Source of the DNA: Thiobacillus sp.
Lineage (GTDB): Bacteria > Pseudomonadota > Gammaproteobacteria > Burkholderiales > Thiobacillaceae
Reading direction: 5' to 3'
Assembly (NCBI GenBank): GCA_030679915.1
Contig: JAUXRY010000022.1
Location: forward strand, 62,001-126,000
Length of the DNA: 64,000 bases
The notes beneath the pieces are model-generated. The model was given only the letters and a program-made list of their open reading frames with translations, did not search any database and was not told the origin of the DNA. Made by a program: the position numbers and the translations under genes. Numbering within the stretch: position 1 is the stretch's first letter; each line of letters begins with the position of its first letter. Shown piece by piece: positions 4,948 through 46,071 of the stretch.

Positions 4948-5958
<1,011 letters not shown>

Positions 5959-6037
5959 CTAGGTTGAAAATTTTGTAGCCTTGAAAAACACGAGCGCTCG
6001 CCAAGCAAGCCACTCGCATTTTTTTTCGGTATCAGTT

Positions 6038-8023
6038 TTACAGAACGCCTTTAACGGCTGCAGCAACGGCTTCAGCCGTAATGCCAAAGTGCTTGTACAG
6101 CGCGGGTGCTGGAGCCGATTCGCCGAAGGTATCCATCCCCACGACAGCGCCTTCCAGACCCACATACTTGCGCCAGAAGTCGGTGACACCGGCTTCGACA
6201 GCTACGCGCGGCAGGCCCTTGGTCAGCACGCTGGCCTTGTAAGCCGCATCCTGACGGTCGAAGGTGTTGGTCGACGGCATCGACACTACACGCACTGCGA
6301 TGCCTTCCGCTGCCAGTGCTTCCTGGGCTTTCATTGCCAGATCAACTTCAGAACCGGTGGCGATGATGATGGCCTTAGCCCCGGCGGCATCTTTCAGCAC
6401 ATAGCCACCCTTGGCGATATTGGCCATGGTGGCGGCATCACGCGCCACGAAGGGCAGGTTCTGACGGCTGAGAATATGGCAGGTGGGGCCGTCGGTACGC
6501 TCAACCGAGTGTGCCCAGCCGACCAGGGTTTCCACGGTGTCGCACGGGCGCCATACGTCGTTGTTAGGCATCATGCGCAGGGTCGAGGTCTGCTCCACCG
6601 GCTGGTGAGTCGGGCCGTCTTCGCCAAGGCCAATGGAATCATGCGTGAAGACGTGAATCACGCGCTGCTTCATCAGCGCTGCCATACGAATGGCGTTGCG
6701 CGAATATTCGGAGAACATCAGGAAAGTGCCGCCGAATGGCAGGAAGCCACCATGCAGCGCCATGCCATTCATGATTGCGGCCATGCCGAATTCACGTACG
6801 CCGTAGCTGATGTAATTGCCGGGGTTGCCGTTGCGAACCGGATGACAGCCTTCCCAGTTGGTGAAGTTCGAACCCGTCAAGTCGGCCGAGCCGCCCAGGA
6901 ATTCGGGTAGCACGGGCGCCAGCGCATCGATTGCATGCTGCGACGCCTTGCGGCTGGCAACAGTTTCCGCCTTGGTGTTACAGGCAGCCAGCTTCTCGGC
7001 GACATGTGCCTTCCAATTGGCAGGCAATTCGCCATTCATGCGGCGCACGAACTCAGCCGCTTCAGCCGGGTAGGCTGCTTTGTATTCAGCGAACTTGTTG
7101 TTCCACAACGTTTCCAGGCCCTGGCCCTTGGTCTTGGCATCCCAGCCGGCGTAAATGTCGGCAGGCACTTCGAACGGCGGATAATTCCAGCCGATATTTT
7201 TGCGAGTTGCCTCAATTTCAGACGCGCCCAAGGCTTCGCCATGCACATGGGTACCGCCTTCTTTGTTCGGCGCGCCCTTGCCAATGACCGTTTTGCAGCA
7301 GATCAGCGTGGGCTTGTCGGTGCTGGCCTTGGCCTTTTGGATCGCAGCTTCCAGCGCAACGACGTTATGGCCGTCCACACCGGCAACCACATTCCAGCCA
7401 TACGCTTCAAAGCGCTTGGCGGTGTCGTCGGTGTACCAGTGCTCGATATGACCATCGATCGAAATGCCGTTATCGTCCCAGAACGCGATCAGCTTGTTGA
7501 GCTTCCAGGTGCCGGCCAGCGCACAGGCTTCGTGCGAAATGCCTTCCATCATGCAGCCATCGCCCAGGAACACATAGGTGTGGTGGTCGACGATGGTGTG
7601 GTCGGGCTTGTTGAATTCATTGGCAAGTACTTTTTCAGCCATGGCCATACCAACACCGTTGGTGATGCCCTGGCCGAGCGGGCCCGTGGTGGTTTCAATA
7701 CCGGGCGCATAACCATACTCGGGGTGACCCGGCGTTCTGGAATGCAACTGGCGGAACTGCTTGATGTCTTCAATCGACAGGTCATAGCCCGTCAGGTGCA
7801 ACAGCGAGTAGATCAACATCGAACCATGGCCGTTGGACAGCACAAAGCGGTCACGATCCGCCCACTTGGGGTTGGTCGGGTTATGACGTAGATGGTGATT
7901 CCACAGCGTTTCAGCGATTTCCGCCATGCCCATGGGGGCGCCGGGGTGGCCGGATTTTGCTTTTTCGACTGCATCCATCGAAAGCGCGCGAATGGCATTG
8001 GCCAGGTCGTTACGGGTTGGCAT
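6038..8023 (-). CDS. tkt: Transketolase
   Basis: Thiamine-diphosphate enzyme that moves two-carbon units in the pentose phosphate and Calvin cycles. The 661-aa product starts [19 protein letters not shown] and contains [11 protein letters not shown] with the conserved His26. The TPP motif is LGDGCMMEG, and a central pyrimidine-binding domain carries [14 protein letters not shown]. The ATG at 8023 follows GAAGGGA. The longer frame upstream lacks homology-like features and overlaps the probable promoter. It is the first gene of the tkt-gap-pgk-pyk-fba series. Confidence 0.95.
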
Positions 8024-9723: not shown

Positions 9724-10452
9724 ATGTCATCGCCGCGCTTTTATCTTGATCACCCGCTTGCCCTGGGCGCCCGCTTCAGCCTGCCGCCCGGGCCCGCGCG
9801 CCACGCAGCAAAAGCACTGCGGTTAACCGTGGACGACACGGTCACCCTGTTTAACGGCCAGGGGGGAGAACATACCGCTCATATCGAGCGTATCCAGAAA
9901 GATGATGTTGCGGTCAGAATCACCGGTTTTACTGACATCGAGCGCGAGTCGCGCTTGCGCATCATGTTGGCGCAAGGAATCTCGAGTGGCGAGCGAATGG
10001 ATTACACCCTGCAAAAATCCGTTGAGCTTGGCGTGGTTTCGATCCAGCCGATTGCCGCCAAACGCAGCGTGGTCAAACTCAGCGGTGAGCGTGCGGAGCG
10101 TCGTGTTGCGCATTGGCAAGGTGTCGTCGCCAGTGCCAGTGAACAATGCGGACGCAACCAGGTGCCTACAGTAGAAGTGCCACAAACACTGACTACCTGG
10201 TTGGGACATCACACAGCGGGACGCCTGTTATTTTTATCGCCACTGGCCGACACACGACTGGCCAGCTTGCCGCCACCCACAGGGATCGACTGTCTGGTGG
10301 TCGGCCCCGAAGGCGGCTTTGAGGCTGATGAAATTGCAGCATTGGTTGCAGCAGAGGCCATACCTGTTTGTCTCGGCCCACGCGTGCTGCGTACCGAGAC
10401 AGCAGCATTGGCCGCGTTGGCGGCGATGCAAACCCTGTGGGGCGACTTCTGA
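9724..10452 (+). CDS. rsmE: 16S rRNA (uracil-1498-N3)-methyltransferase
   Basis: Methylates U1498 of 16S rRNA. The 242-aa protein has the N-terminal PUA-like segment (HAAKALRLTVDDTVTLFNGQGGE) and the SPOUT knot motifs EQCGRN, VVGPEGGFEADEI and LGPRVLRTETAA, which together are diagnostic for RsmE. The ATG at 9724 lacks a strong ribosome binding site but gives the expected N-terminus (SSPRFYL). It is convergent with the DsrE-like gene across a symmetrical terminator. Confidence 0.95.
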   Translation: MSSPRFYLDHPLALGARFSLPPGPARHAAKALRLTVDDTVTLFNGQGGEHTAHIERIQKDDVAVRITGFTDIERESRLRIMLAQGISSGERMDYTLQKSVELGVVSIQPIAAKRSVVKLSGERAERRVAHWQGVVASASEQCGRNQVPTVEVPQTLTTWLGHHTAGRLLFLSPLADTRLASLPPPTGIDCLVVGPEGGFEADEIAALVAAEAIPVCLGPRVLRTETAALAALAAMQTLWGDF

Positions 10453-34472: not shown

Positions 34473-34521
34473 TCGGTTTGACACAATCAGGGCAGGCAAG
34501 TCCGGTTGGCGTAACGTTTTC

Positions 34522-34551
34522 AGATTACAGGGTGTGGCTCAATACTGCCAA
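34522..34551 (-). promoter_or_regulatory. Possible promoter of the metal-efflux operon
   Basis: On the minus strand TTGGCA (plus-strand 34546-34551) is separated by 18 nt from TAATCT (34522-34527), about 50 nt upstream of the His-rich gene. The -35 matches the sigma-70 consensus at five of six positions. The CTTAAG box lies about 37 bp further upstream, a plausible activator position. Confidence 0.4.
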
Positions 34552-34587
34552 TCACACACAGTAATGAGTGAATCCTGACGATTGATT

Positions 34588-34604
34588 CTTAAGCGCGCCT
34601 TAAG
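34588..34604. promoter_or_regulatory. PmrA/QseB-type box, CTTAAG-N5-CTTAAG
   Basis: Two perfect CTTAAG half-sites separated by 5 nt (11-bp periodicity) lie 116 nt upstream of the metal-efflux operon. This is the architecture of boxes recognised by PmrA/QseB-class response regulators (YTTAAK-N5-YTTAAK). A near-identical box precedes the cytochrome b/SHP/DHC operon at 45385, beside a regulator of that class. Binding is inferred, not shown. Confidence 0.6.
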
Positions 34605-34748
34605 TTGCAGGGATATCCCAGTAAATACCTTACGGCAGAATTGAACGCTTGCCTATTAAATGACCATTTTCCAGCGGGCCAGACAATATCTATCCAGCGA
34701 CTTTAAAAATGCTTGCGAACAGAGTTCATAAGCGTCACGAGGGCAGAA

Positions 34749-34838
34749 ACCGGCCGACTGCGGTCACTGAGTGAACCAGGAACATGCGTTCCTGGACGGC
34801 CGGTATACCTTAGCAAGCTGCCAGCGGCTGAGCTGGCA
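34749..34838. repeat. Multi-hairpin element downstream of hsdR
   Basis: An outer stem ACCGGCCG / CGGCCGGT (34749-34756 with 34797-34804) encloses two hairpins: GGTCACT/AGTGAACC (about 34762-34777) and CCAGGAAC/GTTCCTGG (34776-34783 with 34788-34795). A separate hairpin TGCCAGC/GCTGGCA follows (34819-34825 with 34832-34838). No long T tract is present, so this is not a classical terminator. It lies 50 nt after the hsdR stop, in a 416-nt gap without genes. Confidence 0.5.
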
Positions 34839-34888
34839 TGGTTGGCAGGTCATTGACTAGAGCCGCCATCCAACCAGCAAGACGACGC

Positions 34889-37800
34889 CTATCCTTCTGT
34901 CCAACCCGCTGACAGCAACTCTGCCTGCGCGATCACTGTTTTAACAGCCTCCTCCTGCAAGTCCGGCGGATAACCATACTTGTTCAGGATGCGCTTCACC
35001 ATCACGCGAATCTTTGCCCGCGCGCTTTCGCGCAGTGTCCAGTCTATCGTCACACTCTTCTTCACTTGGGTGATGAGTTCGGCGGCGATGACCTTGAGTT
35101 TGTCGTCGCCCATGGCGATGACGGCGTTCTGGTTGGCGGCAAGCGCGTCGTAAAAGGCCACCTCGTCATCCGTCAGGCCAAGTGCTTCGCCGCGCTTGGT
35201 GGCGGCGTCGAGTTCCTTGGCGAGTTGAATCAGCTCTTCGATCACCTGCATCGTGGAGATGGCGCGGTTGTGGTACGCGTTGAGGGTCTTCTTGAGCTTC
35301 TCGGAAAAGACCTGGCTCTGCACAAGGTTGCGCTTGGATCTGACCTTGAGTTCGTCCTTGAGTAGTTTCTCCAGCAACTCGGCGGCGACGTTCTTGTGCT
35401 TCAGGCCGCGCACTTCGGCGAGGAACTGGTCAGAGAGGATCGAAATGTCCGGCTTGGGCAAGCCAGCGGCGGTGAAAACGTCGATCACCTGGCCCTCGGT
35501 GGTGATGGCTTTGGAAACGAGCTGGCGGATGGCGGCGTCGACCTGCTCCGGCGTCTTCCGGTTGTTGCTGCTCTGCTTGTTGAGCGCGGCCTGGATCGCC
35601 TGAAAGAAACTCACGTCGTCGCGAATCTCGGTGGCTTCATCGCTCGCGGCGCAGAGGGCGAAGGCGCGGGAGAGTTCCGTCACTACCTGCACCCAACGCT
35701 TTTTGCCGTCGTCCTGTTCGAGGATGTGCTCCTGTCCGGCGGGGATGAGGGCGAGGCGTTCTGTGGGTTTACCGGTGATCCACTTGTCACGGTTGAAGCC
35801 ATGCATCATGTCGCAGGCGATGTCGTGTTTCTCCAGCATCACGGCGATGGCCTGCGCGGTGTCGAAAGTCGGATCACCCTGGCCGCCGCTCTCGGTGTAA
35901 GTCACCAGCGCCTTCTTGAGTTGATCGGCCAGCCCCAGGTAATCCACCACCAGCCCGCCGGGCTTGTCGCGGAAGACACGGTTCACGCGCGCGATGGCCT
36001 GCATCAGTCCGTGGCCCTGCATCGGCTTGTCCGCATACATCGTGTGCAGGCAGGGCGCGTCGAAGCCGGTCAGCCACATATCGCGCACGATCACGATGCG
36101 GAAGGGGTCACGGCTATCCTTGAAGCGATTCGCCAGCTTGCGGCGCTTGTCCTTGCTGCGAATGTGCGGCTGCCAATCGGGACCGTCATCGGCACTGCCG
36201 GTCATCACCACCTTCACCACGCAGGCCTTGCCCTTCTCGGCTTCGCTATTTCCATCTGCGTCGTCTTCGGCGCTGGCCCAGTCTGGACGCAGCTTGATGA
36301 GCGCGTTGTAGAGGTCCACGGCGATGCGGCGGCTCATGCAAACAATCATCGCCTTGCCGTCCATCGCCTCGACGCGCTTCTCGAAGTGCATCACTAAATC
36401 TGCCGCAATGAGCGCGATGCGCTTCGGGTCGCCCACCAGCGCCTCCAGCGCGGCCCATTTGGTTTTGAGATTTTCCTTCTTCGTCAGCTCTTCGCCTTCG
36501 GTGATTTCCTCAAACTCCGCGTCGAGCTTCGGCAGCTCCGCGGCGTTCAGGCTCAGCTTGGAAATGCGGCTCTCGTAATAGATCGGCACGGTGGCCTTGT
36601 CGGCGACGGCACGCTGGATGTCGTAGATGGAAATGTAATCGCCGAAGACCGCCCGCGTGTTCGCGTCGGTCTTCTCGATCGGCGTGCCGGTAAAGCCGAT
36701 GAACGACGCATTCGGCAGGGCATCGCGCAGGTTGCTGGCGAAGCCGTAGGACATCTCGCCGGTCTTCTCATTCACCTTGCCGCCAAACCCATACTGGCTG
36801 CGGTGCGCTTCATCCGCAATGACCACGATGTTCTGCCGCGCGCTCAGTTCGGGCATCGCCTCACCCTTTTCCGGCATGAACTTGTGGATCGTCGTGAACA
36901 CCACGCCGCCGCTCGCCCGGTTCAGCAGTTCGCGTAAATGCTCGCGCCCGCCCGCCTGCACCGGCATCTGGCCGAGGATGTCGTGGCAGCGCTGGAACTG
37001 GCCGAAGAGCTGGTCGTCGAGATCGTTACGGTCGGTCAGCACCACCAGCGTCGGGTTTTGCATCGCAGCGTGCCGCACCACGCGTGCAGCGTAGAAAAGC
37101 ATGGAGAAGCTCTTGCCGCTGCCCTGCGTGTGCCAGACCACGCCCGCGCGCCGGTCGCCCGGCTTGCCGCCGTGCATGCGGCCCGCCCAGTAGGTGCCCA
37201 CATCCTGCTTCGCCGTGTTGGCCTCAACCATGCCCGCAGTCATGCCACTGGCGCGCACCGTTTCCTCCACCGCCGCATTCACTGCGTGGAACTGATGGTA
37301 GCCCGCGATAATCTTGTGCAGCGCGCCCGAGTCCGGGTCTTCCTCGAAAACGATGAAATGTTGGAGCAGGTCGAGGAAGCGCTGCCGCTCGAACACGCCG
37401 CGCACCAGCACCTCCAGCTCCAGCGCCGTCTTCGGCGCATCGCCCTCGCCATCAATCGTGCGCCAGACCTTGAACCACTCCTGGTTCGCCGTCACGGAAC
37501 CCATGCGCGCCTGCAAGCCGTCGCTCACTACCAGCGCCGCGTTGTAATGCAGCAGCGAGGCAATCTCCGCCTTGTAGGTTTGAAGCTGGGCGTAGGCGCT
37601 CCAGATCGTCGCGTCCTCATCCGCCGCATTCTTCAGCTCGATCAAGCCCAGCGGCAGCCCGTTCACGAAAACCACGATGTCCGGCCGCCGGTTGTGCTGC
37701 GCCCCACCCGACGTTTCGATCACCGTGAACTGGTTCACCGCCAGCCAGTCGTTCGCCCGCACATCGCCGAAATCCACCAGCCGCACATGGTCCCCGGCGA

Positions 37801-38119
37801 TGCTGCCGTCCCTGCGCGGGTATTCCACCGGCACCCCATCGCGCAGCATCCGGTGAAAGGCGCGGTTGGTCTGCGTCAGCGAAGGCGTCCCCACCCGCAG
37901 TACCTTGCGCACAGCCTCCTCCTGCGCCTCCTCGGGAATGGCCGGGTTCAGCCGCCGGATCGCTTCGCGCAAGCGCCCCACCAGCACCACGTCGCCAAAC
38001 GACTCCCGCTCCGCCGCCGGCTCGCCGGGCGCGAGAAGCGGCCCGTGGCCGATGGCATAGCCCAGCTCACCGAACCATTCGAGCGCTGCGCCTTCGACAG
38101 TGGATTCGTTGAGGCTCAT
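34889..38119 (-). CDS. hsdR: Type I restriction enzyme, restriction (R) subunit
   Basis: Motor and nuclease subunit of a type I restriction-modification system, 1076 aa. The N-terminal nuclease has the PD-(D/E)xK elements RRPDIVVF (Asp147) and LIELKN (Glu161, Lys163). The helicase part has Walker [10 protein letters not shown] (331-338), [16 protein letters not shown] and [13 protein letters not shown], followed by a C-terminal helical domain that contacts the methylase. The start overlaps the stop of the rhuM-like gene (ATGA). It is separated from hsdM/hsdS by three other genes. Its first codons are duplicated at 40865-40925. Confidence 0.95.
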
Positions 38120-39183
38120 GGTTTGTCCCCTGTCTCCGGCAGCTCCTTGATCGCTCGGTCGAAGTCCGACTCGAACAGCCGATCCTGCACGATACGGTAT
38201 TTCTCAAACTCACTTTCGGCATGGGCTTGGGCGATTTCGGCAGTGACTTTGCCAGCATCCTGCAAAATTTCCCGGTCGGTCGCGGCAATGAAGCGGTTGA
38301 GGCGGGTTTCCCAGTCCTGCATGGTCATGGGAATCTGCCGCAGCGCCATGTCTTCGGCCACATCGAGGTAGGCGGAGACAAGCCGCTGCAGTTGGGCCAT
38401 TTCGTTTTCCGTGAGGTAGTTTTTCGCCACGCTGACATCGAACTTCTGGATTTTTCCTTCGGGCGCGTCTTTCCAGGTGGTGAGTCCCATGCTGTCTTTG
38501 GTGGCATCGGCACGGGAGAGGATGACTTCCGCCGCCGTCTGGCCGTGGATGGCCCAGTGCAGCTTGTTTTGCACGGTGGCAAAGAAGCGTTTGGTGGAGG
38601 CGGCGGTGACATCGTAGTCGATGGAAGTGGCGTAGATGTCGGTGATTTTCTGGTAAAACTTGCGCTCGCTGAGGCGGATTTCGCGGATGCGCTGGAGCTG
38701 TTCCTCGAAGTATTTTTTGCCGAGGACGGAGCCGTCGTTTTTCAGGCGCTCGTCGTCCATGGCAAAGCCCTTGATCGTGAAGGATTCGATGATGCCGGTG
38801 GCCCACTTGCGGAATTGGACGGCGCGCTCGGAGTTCACCTTGTAGCCGACGGCGATGATGGCGGCGAGTTGGTAGTGCTGGGTGTCGTAGGCTTTGCCGT
38901 CGGCGGCAGTTATTCGAAAATTTCGAATAACTGAACCGGCCTGCAATTCGCCGTCGGCAAAAATCTGCTTGAGGTGGTAGTTCACGGTGTGGGTGGCCAC
39001 ATCGTAGAGCAGCCCCAGCATCTTCTGAGTGAGCCAGACATTCTCATCGGCGTAAACGGCTTCGACGCCACCCTGGCCGCTGGCCGCCACAAAGGTCAGG
39101 TATTCCGCCGCCGAAGAGCGAACCAAGGAGACTGAGGTGTTCTTTTTGGCGCGACCGTCAGGAGTGGATTTGTTTTTGCTCAT
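38116..39183 (-). CDS. RhuM-family protein
   Basis: The 355-aa cytoplasmic protein shows the RhuM pattern: [27 protein letters not shown] near residues 49-75, [44 protein letters not shown] and a helical C-terminal half. The family, first named for a Salmonella pathogenicity-island gene, is common in restriction-modification and phage-defence loci but has no established mechanism; a DNA-binding role is suggested by its Fic/KilA-N-like N-terminus. Translation is coupled to hsdR through a 4-nt overlap. Confidence 0.88.
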
Positions 39184-39261
39184 GGCCTGTTCTTTCTCAA
39201 ATCGCAGGGGCTGGCGGGAAAAACTGAGTAGCGGGCTACCAAATACAAGGAGCTCAAATCC

Positions 39262-39407
39262 AAATTCGGGGAGCTGAGATTCGAAATTCGGGGAGGTCGT
39301 CCGAAAACAGCATTCGCCGCCGGTTTGCTTTTAAACAAGCAACTTATTGAAAGTAAAAGATTTAAATGGAACATGCCGTACCTAGGCCGGTTTGCTTTTA
39401 AATAAGC
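39262..39407. repeat. Short direct repeats between the AlbA/ATPase gene and rhuM
   Basis: Two kinds of repeat fill the 225-nt gap. AAATTCGGGGAG occurs at 39262-39273 and 39284-39295 with a 22-bp period that is partly conserved outside the 12-mer. A 22-mer beginning GCCGGTTTGCTTTTAAA and ending AAGC occurs at 39319-39340 and 39386-39407 with one mismatch, spaced 67 bp. The second copy ends one base before the AlbA/ATPase stop codon. They may be recombination scars or binding sites; no gene is convincing here. Confidence 0.7.
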
Positions 39408-39408
39408 G

Positions 39409-40818
39409 TCACGCCCAGAATGGCACATAGCTTCGATAGCGGGTGGAGGTTTGGGCAGGGTCGGCAAGCTTGATTTTTCCAGCTTCCATTGTCGCCGCAA
39501 TGATTTGGGAAACCGTTGCTGTCTTGTCCTCCGACAGCTTGAATCTCTCCCTCAAGCTTTGGTTGGTCATCTTTTCATTCATCACATAGCGCAGGCAGCA
39601 ATGCTGGTAGCAAGCGCGAATGCGGTCATTGCGATCCATCTGTTCGATGTTCATGTGGGCGAAAAGCAAAGCCGAGGTGCGCCGTTCCCCCACCCTGAAA
39701 TCAGGTGCCGGCAGTTGAAACACCTCTGCCGCCTGCACCACTTTATCCACGCCACTGCCTTTCTCTTCGCAGATACCCAGACGCCGCATCAGATCAGCCA
39801 AGCGTTCATTACGCGACTGGTATTCGTCAATAAACCGGTCCGGTGGAATGAAAGGCTTCCCGGGATTTGAAATCTCCATCCGGTCATCGTAAATCTCGAT
39901 CATCACCGAGGTTCCAGTCTGGGTGAAATCCTGATGGATGAGCGCATTCGCCACCAGTTCGCGCACCGCAATTTCCGGAAACATCTTCACCTCCCGCCGC
40001 AGTGCCTGCTCGATCACCTCATTTGAAGGCACCAGTCCGTAGATGAACTCCACCAGACCTTGGAAGCCAACCGAATAACCTTTCGTGCCCAGCTTATCCA
40101 GCTTCGTCTTCAGCTTATTCTTGCCCTCGTAAACGATGACCCGCGCGGATTTCCGCGCCAACCGGTCGAACTGCTCCAGCTTCTTGGCAAACAGGATCGC
40201 TCCCAGGTTCGTAATCGTCCACCCGCCATCTTGGCGCAGGATGAGTTTCTCACTCTCAAAACGTTCCAACACACCGGCCCGATTGACCGGATAAGGCAAA
40301 TGCAACAGGTCGAAATAGCTCTGCGTATCCAGAAGCTGAATCACCTTGTCATCATCGCAGTCGGCCAGTGCAAGCTGAGAAAACCAGTCTGGCTGCCCCT
40401 CCGCAAAAATCGCCCGTAGCCGATCCTCGCTCATCGGCACCAGTTCTTCACCGGCGCGCATGAGGTAAGCACCCTCGAAATCGTAAACCGTGCCGCGCGG
40501 GCGACCCGGAATATGGAACACCAGCACCCGACCATCAGGATGCAGCACCTCCTCGATTTCCACCCGGAAACCCAGGGTATGAAACATCTTGGCCGCCATC
40601 TCCACCGGATCATTAAAAGCCGCCGTGCCCACGACCTTGCGGGGTGGTTGATCTTCAATGCCGAGCAGCAGATACCCGCCGCCTTCATTCGCTAACGCCA
40701 CGCAGTATTTGTAGAGCTTGCGGTTGTCGAACTGCGTCTTCGCTTCCTTGAATTCCAGCCGCTGATGCTCCGAATGAGCAGCCCGCCATATGTCAATTTG
40801 TTGAATCGTCGTCGCCAT
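39409..40818 (-). CDS. ATP-binding protein with AlbA/Schlafen-type N-terminal domain
   Basis: The 469-aa protein has an AlbA_2/Schlafen-type domain at residues 1-130 (RLEFKEAKTQFD, NEGGGYLLLGIED, the two acidic and glycine-rich landmarks), then a GHKL-like ATP-binding segment (AVRELVANALIHQDF, YDDRMEISNPGKP, RLGICEEKGSGVDKV) and a C-terminal winged-helix region. Such proteins occur as transcription regulators and as parts of defence loci. It lies between DUF3644 and rhuM in the type I RM locus, and its promoter-side gap contains an hsdR remnant. Its role there, whether regulation or an added defence function, is not known. Confidence 0.85.
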   Translation of the reverse strand: MATTIQQIDIWRAAHSEHQRLEFKEAKTQFDNRKLYKYCVALANEGGGYLLLGIEDQPPRKVVGTAAFNDPVEMAAKMFHTLGFRVEIEEVLHPDGRVLVFHIPGRPRGTVYDFEGAYLMRAGEELVPMSEDRLRAIFAEGQPDWFSQLALADCDDDKVIQLLDTQSYFDLLHLPYPVNRAGVLERFESEKLILRQDGGWTITNLGAILFAKKLEQFDRLARKSARVIVYEGKNKLKTKLDKLGTKGYSVGFQGLVEFIYGLVPSNEVIEQALRREVKMFPEIAVRELVANALIHQDFTQTGTSVMIEIYDDRMEISNPGKPFIPPDRFIDEYQSRNERLADLMRRLGICEEKGSGVDKVVQAAEVFQLPAPDFRVGERRTSALLFAHMNIEQMDRNDRIRACYQHCCLRYVMNEKMTNQSLRERFKLSEDKTATVSQIIAATMEAGKIKLADPAQTSTRYRSYVPFWA

Positions 40819-40864
40819 AATCAGCTCGTACTTTGCGCTAAATTTTTAGTGATGCCTGCACAAT

Positions 40865-40925
40865 GCGGCTCGTGGCCGATGGCATAGCCCAGCTCCACGA
40901 ACCAGGTCAGGGTTACGTTGAGGCT
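40865..40925 (-). pseudogene. Degenerate copy of the first codons of hsdR
   Basis: Plus-strand 40865-40895 matches 38038-38068 (hsdR codons about 18-27) with one mismatch in 31 nt. The last 10 nt (CGTTGAGGCT) match the sequence right after the hsdR ATG. The part between is shortened and diverged. Read in the hsdR frame it gives [18 protein letters not shown], against SLNESTVEG...[12 protein letters not shown] in hsdR. The start ATG has been replaced by the stop codon of the DUF3644 gene. A short remnant of an hsdR start therefore sits where hsdR would be expected after hsdS-DUF3644. Confidence 0.85.
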
Positions 40926-41916
40926 AGGTATCATTGGCACATCTCCGAATTATCTTTGCAGTGCTTGCGGACGGTCGCGAGCCAAGAGTCGTACCAGTAC
41001 CAAGTTTTGGCGACTTGAACGCCATATCCCTTTGCCAGGTTCTTTGCATCGCAACTCTTCCAAAATCAGTGTGCTGCGCCATCCCAAACTTTGGAAAACC
41101 CTCGGCCTTAACCGAGGCCACTATCTGCGATGGAAGCCACTTTGGACGTTCCGTCTCTCGAATCACTGCGTACGTGGCGTTAACGCTCTTAGCAAGTTCT
41201 GAGTCGGCTTTAACGAAGGTGATGACTTGATCTGCCTGATTCGGATGATTCGCTGTCTTCGGTACAAAAATCACGCGATATGCAAACTTCTCACTCGCAA
41301 ACTCTTCAGACGTCAGCGCACCGTCGAACCCCTCAATGTACTTTTTAATATGGCCCGGCAAACCCTTTTGTTGCGCAAGCGTATCGACCTGCTCCTGGCT
41401 GAGCGACGAGAATTGCAGGCTAACCGCGAGGTGCTTGGCGATGCCGTACTCTTCTCCGAACAGTGATGCGGCTGCATGATGATAGTTGATGCAGCAAGCC
41501 TGAAAGCGTGCACTCAGGAGATCATCGATCCGCGTGGTCATTTGATGCTCGATCTCATGCCGAAGACCGATTAGAAACTTTAAGTTCTGAACCACCTCAC
41601 GCTCCAGGGGGCACTGCTCCTCATTCAGGCACCGCTCCAGTTCCCAATGTTTGAAGGCACCACCGTTCTTGGTGCGGTCATATTGCTTCCTCTTCGCTCC
41701 TTGAGTGAAGTACCGGTAATCAATGCCCACAGCGCGATAGTGCGCATGGAGAAGATATGTCCACGCGATGTTCATCAGAACAATGTAGGTTTCAGACTTG
41801 AACGTTACATTCGGGTTGTTGAAAATCTGAATAGCCGCAAGCGCCGCTTCGCGGGATTTCTTCAGCAGTTCTTCCTTGACGGAGAAAACTCGGCGAACGC
41901 GCTTGGCGGTGCTCAT
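40924..41916 (-). CDS. DUF3644 domain protein of the restriction locus
   Basis: The 330-aa protein begins [26 protein letters not shown] and carries the DUF3644 signature FNNPNVTFKSETYIVLMNIAWTYLLHAHYR, followed by a GLRHEIEHQM helix and a C-terminal region that includes HTDFGRVAMQ. The family is found in or beside type I RM and other defence systems without a known activity. The start overlaps the hsdS stop by 4 nt, so the genes are coupled. Its stop codon coincides with the beginning of the hsdR remnant. Confidence 0.85.
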   Translation of the reverse strand: MSTAKRVRRVFSVKEELLKKSREAALAAIQIFNNPNVTFKSETYIVLMNIAWTYLLHAHYRAVGIDYRYFTQGAKRKQYDRTKNGGAFKHWELERCLNEEQCPLEREVVQNLKFLIGLRHEIEHQMTTRIDDLLSARFQACCINYHHAAASLFGEEYGIAKHLAVSLQFSSLSQEQVDTLAQQKGLPGHIKKYIEGFDGALTSEEFASEKFAYRVIFVPKTANHPNQADQVITFVKADSELAKSVNATYAVIRETERPKWLPSQIVASVKAEGFPKFGMAQHTDFGRVAMQRTWQRDMAFKSPKLGTGTTLGSRPSASTAKIIRRCANDT

Positions 41917-43280
41917 GTGGTTTCTTCCACAAGGCGATCAGCCACGCTCAACTCCCCGCTCAACTCCCCGCTCAGCAGCTTCGGTAGCAGCGCGTCGCGC
42001 AGGGTGGCGAGGGTTCGGGATTGGTGAAGGTTGGCGTGAACTTGCCGGAACAGCGGCGTCACTTGCTTATCGAAGGCGAGGAGGATCTCCTTCGGCGCGA
42101 GGAGAACGTCTGTCGCTTCGAAGGTGCTCGTGGTGATCGTATCGAAGATGGAGCCGTGACCACCTTGGACGAGGCGCTCAATGAAGTGACGGGCGTTGCA
42201 GTAGAGGGCGAAAGGCGCACCGACCTTTGAGCGCAGTCCGTAGCAGGTCTGATTCATTGCCATCGCATGGCCGAACATTGTAAGTCTCCCAGTCGTCGCT
42301 CCTCGCGCGACAACCACAGTTGCATTGGCCGGGATAACCTTCGTGGAGCTTTCATCGACGCCCTGCGTCGTGATGGTACGCTCGGTGGACACAAGGAAGG
42401 CTTCACCGCATTGGGAAACGTCCTTCGCGCTGGCCCACGGCACATCACCGTTCCAGTAGGCCGGAACATCGGTTTTGGGCGTGCCGCCACTCAGCAGGTC
42501 TGCTTGCCGGAGGATCGAGCCGGTCTCCCACCCTTCTGGAATGTGGCCGAGTGGGGAGTCTTGGAAGGTGGCGGGGAAGATGGCTGCGGTGGCTGGGTCG
42601 AGGGCGGCAGGGGGGCGGCCGTCGAGTTTGGCGCGGACGGGGTCGAAATCCACGAACCAGCTCTGGAACAGCGCCCGCGCCATCGCCTCCAGCGTCGTGT
42701 TCATCCGCCGGTTCAACTCGATCTTGTCGTCCAGTGCCCCAAGCACCGCCGCGATGGCTTCGCGCGTGTCAGTCGGTGGGATGGGAATCGGAAGCTTCGC
42801 CAAGTCGCGGAGGTTGAACGTGGCTTGAACGGTCGTCGTCGCCCACGTGCGAATGCAGTGCTGGATGAACGCGGTACGAAGGCAGATGGAAACCCAAAGG
42901 CTGCCGGGGTCTCTACGAACGGGAATTACTCCGACGGCACGAGCTACATTCCAGCCGCGCAGTTTTTCGGGGACGATGGCCACCTCGCCGAGAGTTCCAA
43001 CGAGCGTCAAAAGAACTTCACCTCCACGCAGGCGGGAGCGCAGGAACTTGGCTTCAATTTCGGCTTCAACTTTGAGCATGTCCGTCGTGTCGATGCGCCC
43101 ATTCCGAATGTTGTTCACGCGCACGATGGGAACACCATCGGTGGTTTCGCTTCCGGGTTGGACAATGCCGTATGAAACGCCGCGTTCGTCAACGAGATCG
43201 CCAAGCGATTCATAGCGCCAGCCGCTAGGGAGGACTGGCAACTCGTCGGGCAATGACAGATCTTCGAGACTAACTGCCAA
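41913..43280 (-). CDS. hsdS: Type I restriction enzyme, specificity (S) subunit
   Basis: The 455-aa DNA-recognition subunit has two target-recognition domains (about residues 15-165 and 235-400) separated by the conserved helical spacer [21 protein letters not shown] second copy of that helix lies at the C-terminus ([16 protein letters not shown]...[10 protein letters not shown]). The two halves bind the two parts of a bipartite site; the sequence recognised cannot be predicted. Its start overlaps hsdM by 11 nt. A 12-bp tandem repeat near the 3' end makes the tail read GELSGELS. Confidence 0.93.
41947..41974. repeat. 12-bp tandem repeat in the 3' end of hsdS
   Basis: Two perfect copies of CTCAACTCCCCG (41947-41958, 41959-41970) plus four bases of a third copy encode the repeated tetrapeptide GELS in HsdS. 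The unit is a multiple of three, so slippage would add or remove four residues without breaking the frame. Confidence 0.85.
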
Positions 43281-44880
43281 AGCCCAGCCCCTTGAGGTTT
43301 GCTTTTATGGCCAGCTCCAGATTCGCCGACTCGGCGAACTGCACTTCAAGTTCGGCGACGAGGCGCGGCATCTTTTCCTCGAAGGGGTCGCCGTCGTCTT
43401 CGACTTCCTCGGCACCGACGTAGCGGCCGGGCGTGAGGACGTGGCCGTGGGCGGCGATTTCGGCGGTGGTGGCGGATTTGCAGAAGCCGGGAATGTCGGC
43501 GTAGGTTGATTGTCCTTCGACAGGCTCAGGACGAACGGCGTTTTTATCGCCGCGCCAGGCGTGGTAGGTGGATGTGATCTTGTTGAGGTCGGCGTCGGTG
43601 AGCTCGCGGTGGACGCGGTCGATGAGCGTGCCCATTTTCCGCGCGTCAATGAAGAGGGTTTGCTTTTTACGATTGCGGAAGCCGCGTTTGGCATCGGCGC
43701 CTTTGTTTTTCGCGATAAACCAGAGGCAGACGGGAATTTGCGTACTGTAGAAGAGCTGGCCGGGCAGCGCCACCATGCAGTCCACGAGGTCGGCCTCGAT
43801 GAGTTTCTGGCGGATGTCGCCTTCGCCAGACTGGTTGGACGACATGCTGCCATTGGCGAGGACGAAGCCGGCCATGCCGTGCGGCGCGAGGTGGTGGATG
43901 AAGTGCTGCACCCAGGCGAAGTTGGCGTTGCCCTTGGGCGGGACGCCGAACTGCCAGCGCACGTCGTCGTCGCGGCGGTGCCAGTCGCTGTCGTTGAAGG
44001 GCGGGTTGGCCAGCACGTAGTCGGCGCGCAGGTCGGGATGGAGGTCGCGGCGGAAGGTGTCGGCGTGCTCTGCGCCAAAATCAGCTTCGATGCCTCTTAA
44101 AGCCAGATTCATCACCGCGAGGCGGCGGGTGGTGGCGTTGCTCTCCTGGCCGTAGATGCTGATGTCCCCGAGCTTGCCGCCGTGGGATTCGACGAATTTT
44201 TCCGACTGCACGAACATGCCGCCGGAGCCGCATGCGGGGTCGTAGATGCGGCCTTTGTAGGGGGCGAGCATTTCGACCAGGCAGCGCACGACGCAGGATG
44301 GGGTGTAGAACTGGCCGCCGTTTTTACCCTCGGCGCTGGCGAAGCGAGTGAGGAAATACTCGTAGACGCGGCCGAGCAGATCGACCGAGCGGTGGGTCTT
44401 TTCGCCTTCGCTGGCGGCGGTGAGTTCGATAGTGGCGATGACGTCGATGAGTTCGCCGAGGCGCTGCTTGTCGAGGCCGGGGCGGGCGTAATCCTTGGGC
44501 AGCACGCCTTTGAGGCGCGGGTTGTCGCGCTCGATAGCGACCATGGCGTCGTCCACGATTTTGCCGATGGTGGGCTGCTTGGCGCTGGCCTGGAGGTGCG
44601 GCCAGCGGGCGTCAGCGGGCACCCAAAAGACGTTCTCGGCCTTGTATTCGTCGGGGTCTTCGGGGTTGGCGCCGGCGTAATCACCTTGGCCCGCGACGAG
44701 CTTGGCGCGGTGTTCCTCGAAGGTGTCGGAGATGTATTTGAGGAAGATGAGGCCGAGGACGACGTGCTTGTATTCCGCCGCGTCCATGTTGTTGCGCAGC
44801 TTGTCTGCGGTGAGCCAGAGCTTGGCCTCGAAGCCAAGATTGGCGGATGAGTCGTTTTTCCTGGTGGGCGTTTTCGCCAT
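43270..44880 (-). CDS. hsdM: Type I restriction enzyme, modification (M) subunit
   Basis: N6-adenine methyltransferase subunit, 536 aa. An N-terminal HsdM_N region ([36 protein letters not shown]) precedes the methylase core with the AdoMet motif DPACGSGGM (214-222) and catalytic NPPF (292-295), then a C-terminal S-subunit contact helix. Between WRGDKN and TYADIPGF the protein contains about ten extra residues, VRPEPVEGQ, encoded by a dispersed palindromic repeat (43511-43539). The insertion keeps the frame, is far from the active site and probably leaves the enzyme functional. First gene of the RM operon. Confidence 0.95.
43511..43539. repeat. Dispersed palindromic repeat inserted in hsdM
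   Basis: The plus-strand sequence TGTCCTTCGACAGGCTCAGG and the following ACGAACGG match the core of a short repeat that I know to be widely scattered in proteobacterial genomes. Its translations ([25 protein letters not shown]) are frequent false peptides in annotations. Here it is read in frame as VRPEPVEGQ (HsdM residues 449-457). The outer bases GTCCT and AGGAC can pair. Confidence 0.75.
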
Positions 44881-45384
44881 CAGATTGCCTTTTGATTGGT
44901 GTGGGTCTCATGTGCGTTTTAAACACATTGCCTGCGCCATCTTAGCCGATTTGGGTGGCCTTCTTTGCCTGTTTCGCACCAGAAATCGTGATACAGCCCT
45001 TCGAATGGAGGTCAACTATCTGGCAAAAATTGCCGGACTCGATGCCTGTATCCGACGAATTTAATATCCACCCGGTGTCGGCTACAGCAATGACCGTTCT
45101 GGCCGAGGACTTGTCATTGAGCAGTTGCTTGGAGCGACTGCTGTATTTTGCAACCTGCCGCCCAACCGGTGACAGCGTGAAGGTCAGCCATGGGTCGATT
45201 TCAGCCATTTCTAGACTCAGGCAGATGATTGAGAAAACGCATCAAGCTCCAAGTCGCAATTGGCGGCAACCTGAAAATCAAACCGATATTTCCCGTTGCA
45301 TCTAACACCGTTTCCCCTAAGTAAAATTTTCCGGTTTTTCCCGCTGACAAGTTGATTGGCTGCTTGCGATAAATGGCACGGCAT
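44881..45384. other. Gene-free stretch upstream of hsdM
   Basis: About 500 nt between the divergent hsdM and cytochrome b genes. Open frames of 88 codons (minus, 44942-45208) and 116 codons (plus, 44955-45305) overlap each other and have no recognisable domain, signal peptide or good ribosome binding site. The interval should hold the hsdM promoter, but no convincing match was found. Confidence 0.5.
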
Positions 45385-45401
45385 CTTAAGGCTGCGCTAA
45401 G
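45385..45401 (+). promoter_or_regulatory. PmrA/QseB-type box upstream of the cytochrome b/SHP/DHC operon
   Basis: CTTAAG-N5-GCTAAG, one half-site perfect and the other one to two bases off. A -10-like TAGAGT follows at 45412-45417, about 10 nt after the box, and the cytochrome b ATG lies at 45448. In PmrA/QseB-type promoters the box takes the place of the -35 element. The operon also encodes an OmpR-type regulator of this class (47030-47701), suggesting autoregulation. Compare the perfect box at 34588. Confidence 0.5.
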
Positions 45402-45447
45402 ACTGCACTACTAGAGTGGTCTCATTGCATGACCGAAGGAGACCACC

Positions 45448-46071
45448 ATGTCACGCTTGAAAACCGAACCCCGTCGCGTGTACGACCCGCTGCTGCGGCT
45501 GCTGCACGCAGCTATCGCGCTGTCTATCATCTCGCTCATCATCACGAGCCAACTGTCCGACTGGTTCGAGCATGGCCCTTATGAAGACACGCTATGGAAT
45601 CTGCATATTTTGTCCGGCTATGTGCTGGCGACGAGCTTTCTGACGCGTTTGCTGTGGGGCCTGGTAGGTCCGGCCAGCGCACGCTGGCGCGACTTGTGGC
45701 ACCCCGCTGTGTGGAAGGACAGCCTTCGGAGGCTGCGCCTACCTGCGGCACACCGGGTGGGGCACGATCCGATCGCCAGCCTGGCGTATCTGTTTGCCTA
45801 TGGCGTGATGGCGCTGATGGTCGTCACCGGACTGGGACTCGCCGCCAGCGAATTCCAGGCCGGCCCGCTGGCCGGCTGGCTCGGCAACGCGACCTGGCTG
45901 GAGGACGTGCTGAAGGATCCGCACGAGGCTGGTTTCATCCTGATGCTGGGCTTTATCGGCCTGCACATGGCGGCGCTGGTATTTCACCACCTGCGCGGCG
46001 AACGGGTGGCGCAAAGCATGCTCACCGGCAAGCAGTACATCGATGCAGAAAGCGAGGTGCAGCATGATTAA
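45448..46071 (+). CDS. Cytochrome b561-type membrane protein (cytochrome b/b6 domain)
   Basis: The 207-aa protein has four membrane segments with candidate heme-ligand histidines in LLRLLHAAIAL (segment 1), LWNLHILSGYVL (segment 2) and GLHMAALVFHHL (segment 4), the layout of di-heme cytochrome b subunits of the b561/hydrogenase-b type. It would pass quinol electrons to the periplasmic cytochromes encoded next. The start follows AAGGAGACC. The next gene begins 8 nt before its stop codon. In Rhodobacter sphaeroides a comparable cytochrome b accompanies the SHP and DHC genes. Confidence 0.9.
   Translation: MSRLKTEPRRVYDPLLRLLHAAIALSIISLIITSQLSDWFEHGPYEDTLWNLHILSGYVLATSFLTRLLWGLVGPASARWRDLWHPAVWKDSLRRLRLPAAHRVGHDPIASLAYLFAYGVMALMVVTGLGLAASEFQAGPLAGWLGNATWLEDVLKDPHEAGFILMLGFIGLHMAALVFHHLRGERVAQSMLTGKQYIDAESEVQHD

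Follow-up and report, generated by a model that had tools for sequence, protein, structure and literature searches.

A short segment between the DUF3644 and AlbA_2 genes of a type I R-M operon is, judging from its match to a related locus, what survives of the 5' end of an hsdR gene that once lay directly behind DUF3644. This scar is probably the broken-off hsdR start left at a joint of two type I R-M operon variants. Similar broken starts are seen in other loci, are specific to the hsdR start, and tend to end in frame at the next gene. The window (the whole analysed stretch of 64,000 nucleotides from Thiobacillus sp.) carries the operon on its minus strand, in the compact order hsdM, hsdS, DUF3644, SLFN AlbA_2/HATPase, RhuM, and hsdR (Table 1). 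Pfam and PADLOC show hsdM, hsdS, and hsdR together in one operon, with same-strand accessory genes embedded between hsdS and hsdR; the DUF3644 start overlaps the hsdS stop. The DUF3644 and RhuM proteins match PADLOC candidate families, and the operon is predicted to be an anti-phage type I R-M system. A search of positions 34500–45500 with Rfam, up to E 1, yields no known RNA.

Table 1. Genes, scar and repeats in the window, and IS200-like relatives in other loci (locus before the coordinates).
Feature	Position	Strand	Evidence
hsdM, 536 aa	43270..44880	-	Pfam N6_Mtase 4.9e-105, HsdM_N
hsdS, 455 aa	41913..43280	-	Pfam Methylase_S 1.6e-18
DUF3644 protein, 330 aa	40924..41916	-	Pfam PF12358 1.3e-58; PADLOC candidate PDC-S19 8e-142
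Block of hsdS tail, DUF3644, and start of hsdR, collinear with L003 8906-10069	40864..42023	-	blastn 86.6% (4978-6137 of the turned window; window position = 47001 minus turned coordinate)
Scar of the hsdR start, a 37-codon open frame that begins at the former hsdR ATG and stops 2 nt short of the AlbA ATG	40821..40934	-	
Core of the scar, matching the intact hsdR start (codons 15-27 plus one base) at 37/40 nt	40865..40904	-	
SLFN AlbA_2 / HATPase_c_4 protein, 469 aa	39409..40818	-	Pfam PF13749 1.3e-22, PF04326 2.1e-13
Direct repeat 1, immediately behind the AlbA stop	39386..39407	-	repeat family D16; pair behind AlbA relatives
Direct repeat 2, 67 bp from repeat 1	39319..39340	-	repeat search; pair behind AlbA relatives
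RhuM-family protein, 355 aa	38116..39183	-	Pfam PF13310 3.7e-108; PADLOC PDC-S05 1e-150
Part of intact hsdR repeated in the scar	38038..38077	-	direct repeat, local alignment
Intact hsdR, 1076 aa	34889..38119	-	Pfam HSDR_N 3.4e-45, SWI2_SNF2, T1RH-like_C 6.8e-130
IS200-like relatives	L111:12116-12649, L145:4757-5293, L144:9561-10085		Pfam match
IS200-like relatives	L024:7213-7731, L140:3758-4279		tblastn

The original prediction took 61 bp between DUF3644 and AlbA for a remnant of the hsdR start, and the remnant is real: the direct repeat of 40 nt shared with the intact gene has 37 identical bases (93%), and the local alignment of the scar with its own hsdR start scores 65, far above the best of 500 dinucleotide shuffles (30). 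The claimed 30 of 31 identical bases at hsdR codons 18–27 hold on inspection of the printed sequences, and the first hsdR codons are present too, the ten bases AGCCTCAACG adjoining this match. In the 2.52-Mb assembly, at E≤0.001, the scar matches only itself and its own hsdR start. Chance similarity is ruled out by the shuffles together with the ten-segment control given below. The remnant is, however, longer than the 61 bp: its frame contains no stop over 37 codons and, compared with the locus L003, lacks 18 nt in frame, so the scar is an open mini-ORF. Nor does the DUF3644 stop replace the hsdR ATG, as had been thought; alignment with L003 shows the ATG retained at 40932–40934, and the DUF3644 TAG (40924–40926) lies 5 nt behind it, so the reading frames of the scar and DUF3644 overlap. 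In the short-start test the window is indecisive because of its deletion (score 12; highest internal window 14), and it is counted via the DNA match.

The closest empty-site allele to the window is L003, a betaproteobacterial MAG, with DUF3644 94% identical to that of the window and hsdR directly next. The hsdR ATG of L003 overlaps the DUF3644 stop, and this hsdR starts two codons further upstream than that of the window. The two loci align in a single block of 1179 columns, which spans the hsdS tail, DUF3644, and the hsdR start and ends at window position 40864, at about hsdR codon 30, where the remnant breaks off. Relatives with the segment and no cassette had been named as evidence against a remnant; L003 is such a relative, yet it supports the idea, because the segment there is the start of an intact hsdR.

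Other parts of the window have other closest relatives, as judged from best identities: the nearest relatives of hsdM and hsdR are in L048, L052, and L012, that of AlbA is in L004, and DUF3644 and the scar are L003-like. A sliding comparison along the window hsdR reveals no clear switch point, and a chimeric hsdR in the window was rejected on this ground. Given the L003-like DUF3644 and scar, the other-allele hsdM and hsdR, and no clear switch within hsdR, both directions of transfer fit equally: an L003-like DUF3644 module may have arrived with a bit of hsdR, or AlbA–rhuM may have arrived at the hsdR start. Thus, the earlier proposal that genes entered at the hsdR start is partly supported: it stands as regards the joint, located where genes separated DUF3644 from hsdR, and either side may have been the incoming one. 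Recombination with a related hsdR copy, also proposed, gains from the scar and the resident hsdR looking like different alleles. For AlbA and rhuM as one cassette the observations are mixed: L005 and L104 also have the order AlbA 3' element–RhuM–hsdR, whereas in L004 hsdR follows AlbA immediately and a broken RhuM-like start precedes AlbA. This broken start (L004, approximately 10082–10346; 31% to RhuM of the window) breaks off directly before AlbA, hence hsdR is not the sole gene broken this way.

The DUF3644 set comprises 84 loci (the window, 80 from genome contigs, and 3 from viral contigs). A longer hsdR belonging to the families tested lies downstream in 37 of them, which serve as the denominator; among these 37, L009, L012, L020, L046, L055, and L073, among others, are cut by a contig end, and in L040 the hsdR frame breaks off. 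In 15 of the 37, hsdR lies directly behind DUF3644 (distance -3 to +202 nt), so the postulated ancestral order hsdM–hsdS–DUF3644–hsdR exists today. In the other 22, hsdR is about 1 kb or more away, and 13 of these separated loci carry an hsdR-start remnant (L047 and L050 being nearly identical): directly behind DUF3644 in ten (the window, L005, L009, L016, L019, L022, L040, L052, L056, L073), and further along in L047, L050, and L048. No clear remnant is seen in 9 of the 22, which counts against an origin at operon joints. L019 and L040 are counted as scars: the short-start test failed there on mis-set hsdR starts, but inspection showed matching starts; a possible further short remnant in L021 was left out of the count. 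L006, L007, and L059 have a remnant with no longer hsdR in the available stretch.

The genes that follow a remnant are diverse: AlbA_2 proteins (the window, L016, L052, L152), RhuM (L040, L059, L073, L139), DUF3644 (L005), a metallophosphatase (L009), a DarT-family protein (L047), Fic (L111), an IrrE-like protein (L022), DUF4062 (L056), and an AAA/DUF4143 protein (L146); a GmrSD-like gene precedes a remnant in L005. At L007:9981–10352 the hsdR start forms one open frame with the next sequence, which looks HTH-like by eye, and at L146:9118–10950 it forms one open frame with the AAA/DUF4143 protein.

As a control, the own HsdR of each of 82 loci with at least 1.5 kb upstream (the window, 32 loci of the DUF3644 set, and 49 drawn regardless of DUF3644) was cut into ten 100-residue segments, which were compared with up to 12 kb of upstream DNA. 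The first segment matches upstream DNA on the same strand at E<1e-3 in 13 of the 82 loci; the other nine segments give six locus–segment matches in all, of which L019 accounts for three and one is on the opposite strand. This shows that the effect is specific to the hsdR start. The 49 loci derive from 55 of 96 listed places, minus one with no recognised hsdR start and five with less than 1.5 kb upstream; those of the 96 that were left out are for the most part short open frames, along with the window, G208 and G163, which have little DNA upstream, and a small number of weak full-length frames, e.g., G240 and G357. Remnants are rarer here, in 3 of the 49 loci, which again counts against joining of operons: L111 and L139 have two remnants each, and L104 has codons 59–99 only, without start codons. 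More than 600 nt separate the last hsdM/hsdS ORF from hsdR in 38 of the 49 loci. The scar of L139 nearer to hsdR is not clearly more similar to hsdR than the other scar, a further point on the negative side.

A census with the HsdR N-terminal profile over 369 and 398 genomes, partly overlapping, adds L146, L149, L152, and L155, where a remnant lies upstream of a same-strand hsdR, the downstream hsdR of L146 being itself incomplete. Short matches in 17 stretches were examined (left out were, e.g., G067 C275 and G477), and those at contig ends (G335, G546, G598) were discarded. The hsdR-start remnants of L141, L142, L145, L147, L150, and L151 have no full hsdR beside them in the available stretch, and hence some remnants are plain decay. 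Joining of operons does not fit the hsdR-start copy downstream of hsdR in L144, nor the additional fragment (hsdR codons 375–510) in L146. The internal hsdR deletions of L148 and L156 fit no better, nor does a C-terminal piece of hsdR about 6 kb upstream of hsdR at L097:7414–7563, with 96% identity to the resident HsdR over 50 aa.

The 21 listed remnants have a median length of 37 hsdR codons, with 20 of them at most 100 codons long (range about 9 to 142); the coordinates and lengths were set by hand, as was the next start in L059. Even breakpoints over approximately 1060 codons would give far longer scars, so long similar repeats would probably have recombined, deleting the cassette, and mostly short, diverged scars would persist. 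In 10 of 19 cases the scar frame closes no more than 10 nt from the start of the next gene, compared with 2 of 38 frames shifted at the joint (Fisher p 9.6e-5); L006, where no ORF of 100 aa follows within 400 nt, and L048, which has no start, were left out of this test. It is failed by 9 of the 19 scars, which counts against the proposed joints. Because scar frames tend to end at the next gene start, a scar may serve as a translational bridge; the bias fits selection for translational coupling, and the scar of the window, ending 2 nt before the AlbA ATG, probably acts as such a bridge, its translation coupling AlbA with the genes upstream.

Compared with their own hsdR, 11 scars pooled yield pS 0.40 and pN/pS 0.36, and the median pN/pS of intact hsdR pairs (n=62) is 0.28. 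The lowest pS values are those of L052 (0.16) and L019 (0.21), and by their low pS these two could be recent copies; the other nine range from 0.36 to 0.62, so the scar and the resident hsdR mostly have the look of separate alleles and not of a fresh duplication. As to a homologous anchor, the two copies differ as alleles, with no clear switch point in hsdR. In L009, an hsdR start of 15 codons is fused in frame to an hsdS tail (E 8.8e-9 in a comparison with 80 tails); L005 probably also joins an hsdR start to an hsdS tail, more weakly (E 0.04). Both look like the edge of the variable region of one operon set on that of another. Microhomology was noticed by eye at the L005 joint.

We suggest that in the window the left part, as far as roughly hsdR codon 30, would come from an L003-like variant with hsdS tail–DUF3644–hsdR, and the right side, with AlbA_2/ATPase, RhuM, and the intact hsdR, from the other variant. 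The joint would have arisen by illegitimate recombination, attaching the hsdR start of one variant to the other variant at its hsdS tail or cassette edge, and the outer crossovers would lie in homologous hsd sequence. The product would contain the accessory genes of both parents chained together, plus a short, diverged direct repeat of the hsdR start.

If a mobile element or cassette had inserted and thereby duplicated the resident hsdR start locally, a direct repeat would likewise flank the intervening genes, as is seen here; IS200-like transposase relatives occur near hsdR in several loci, and the scars of L052 and L019 are rather close to the resident start. This explanation is nevertheless unlikely, given the pS of 0.36–0.62 in 9 of 11 scars, the pN/pS of 0.20–0.29 in 7 of 11, which is like that of intact pairs, the continuation of the L003-like block into the scar of the window, and the three genes of the hsdS–hsdR interval in the window, none of them an integrase by Pfam. 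Repeat lengths also differ between loci: at about 9 to 142 codons, the scars lack the uniform target-duplication length of a transposon or integron cassette, and as for element-specific sites or ends, there is a conserved repeat pair behind AlbA. The same joints, including an hsdR start fused to an hsdS tail, are given by tandem operons, in which a second whole operon adjoined the first and a deletion took most of the first hsdR and the second hsdM and hsdS. Although the extra hsdR pieces in L146 and L144 speak for such an arrangement, it requires an extra step, no intact tandem pair stood out among the mapped loci (no systematic search), and we consider it improbable.

The bias of open frames, relative to shifted ones, towards ending at the next gene, and the presence of a start codon and a next gene in 19 of the 21 listed scars, could also mean that the hsdR-start copy is a selected functional element, encoding a small HsdR-like peptide or serving as a regulatory copy of the hsdR translation start. 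However, coupling alone accounts for the frame bias, lengths vary from about 9 to 142 hsdR codons, pN/pS is raised (0.48–0.69) in the window, L047, L048, and L052, and 46 of the 49 loci drawn regardless of DUF3644 have no copy at E<1e-3, which makes this explanation very unlikely; a conserved HsdR-like peptide as the main reading was rejected on the pN/pS data.

The pair of direct repeats behind AlbA may be an operator or a recombination site. Among eight AlbA relatives, spacing 66 stands out (summed score 88; the median over spacings is 51), and the best pair has spacing 66 or 67 in seven of the eight. For 19 AlbA relatives, the best repeat pair exceeds that of 600 control genes (Mann–Whitney p 1.7e-8), with at least 14 of 18 repeat matches in 10 of the 19 vs. 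4.5% of controls; considered one by one, 11 of the 19 are equalled by no more than 3 of 100 shuffles, and the other eight are not convincing. Some more distant AlbA relatives have other repeat pairs at other spacings, and L005 retains the AlbA 3' repeat element without AlbA. A structured RNA was rejected: of five stretches folded, L141 alone stands out (z -4.96), the others having z of 0.56, 1.44, -1.02, and 0.75. Repeated AGCTCCCCGAATTTGG-like words were seen by eye upstream of rhuM at 39241–39295, and words resembling AGCTCCCCGAATTTGG occur near the RhuM genes of L004 and L012. Relatives of IS200-like (Y1_Tnp) transposases lie near hsdR or hsdR-start remnants in five loci (Table 1). At L111:5812–7896, HsdM has an added DUF559 domain (residues 500–607), which HsdR of L107 seems to share. 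Two of the three Klebsiella plasmid operons are annotated, and both have the order M–S–DUF4268–R.

Defence genes embedded in type I R-M operons are reportedly the subject of a 2024 preprint by Payne et al.; we know of no account of how such genes reach the hsdS–hsdR interval. In homology-facilitated illegitimate recombination, homology recombines one end and the other end is joined illegitimately, a process that would create joints like those proposed here. The position of defence genes between hsdS and hsdR is itself already known. According to the parts of the reports available, DarTG2 is embedded in a type I R-M operon of the EPEC RptR island, with the hsdS–hsdR site called a potential recombination hotspot (PMC12255303), TgvAB lies in a type I R-M operon of V. 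cholerae VPI-2, and Campylobacter jejuni has a gene between hsdR and hsdS (PMC11411939), the same site as that of the accessory genes in the window. The window resembles these operons (PMC12255303, PMC11411939) in its accessory genes between hsdS and hsdR, and a DarT-family gene (L047) and a GmrSD-like gene (L005) likewise lie at scars; in the available parts of the two papers, however, no hsdR-start remnant is mentioned, whereas the window has a physical trace of the joint. Truncated hsdR genes in non-functional systems of Staphylococcus epidermidis, with hsdS and without hsdM, are a likeness in that hsdR is broken in type I loci, but the accessible part of that report describes no broken start beside a complete hsdR (PMC6918075). 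Among the full-text matches listed, seen by title and start of the abstract, there was no report of hsdR-start remnants, which does not prove their absence from print.

The similar broken starts in related operons suggest that such operons gain defence genes by end-to-end joining at this site. More tentatively, the hsdR start might be a reusable joint for chaining defence cassettes, with translated bridges coupling the genes and a series of scars giving the order of acquisition, although we hold this broader picture to be rather less probable than not. The scars are a sequence-level record of joints and indicate that separate operon variants were chained together; they suggest a rule for the joints that survive, namely, that these are short, diverged, and in frame with the next gene. 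For annotation, such small ORFs are fossils and not new genes, and they offer a means to find joints in genomes, order acquisitions, and spot embedded defence genes.
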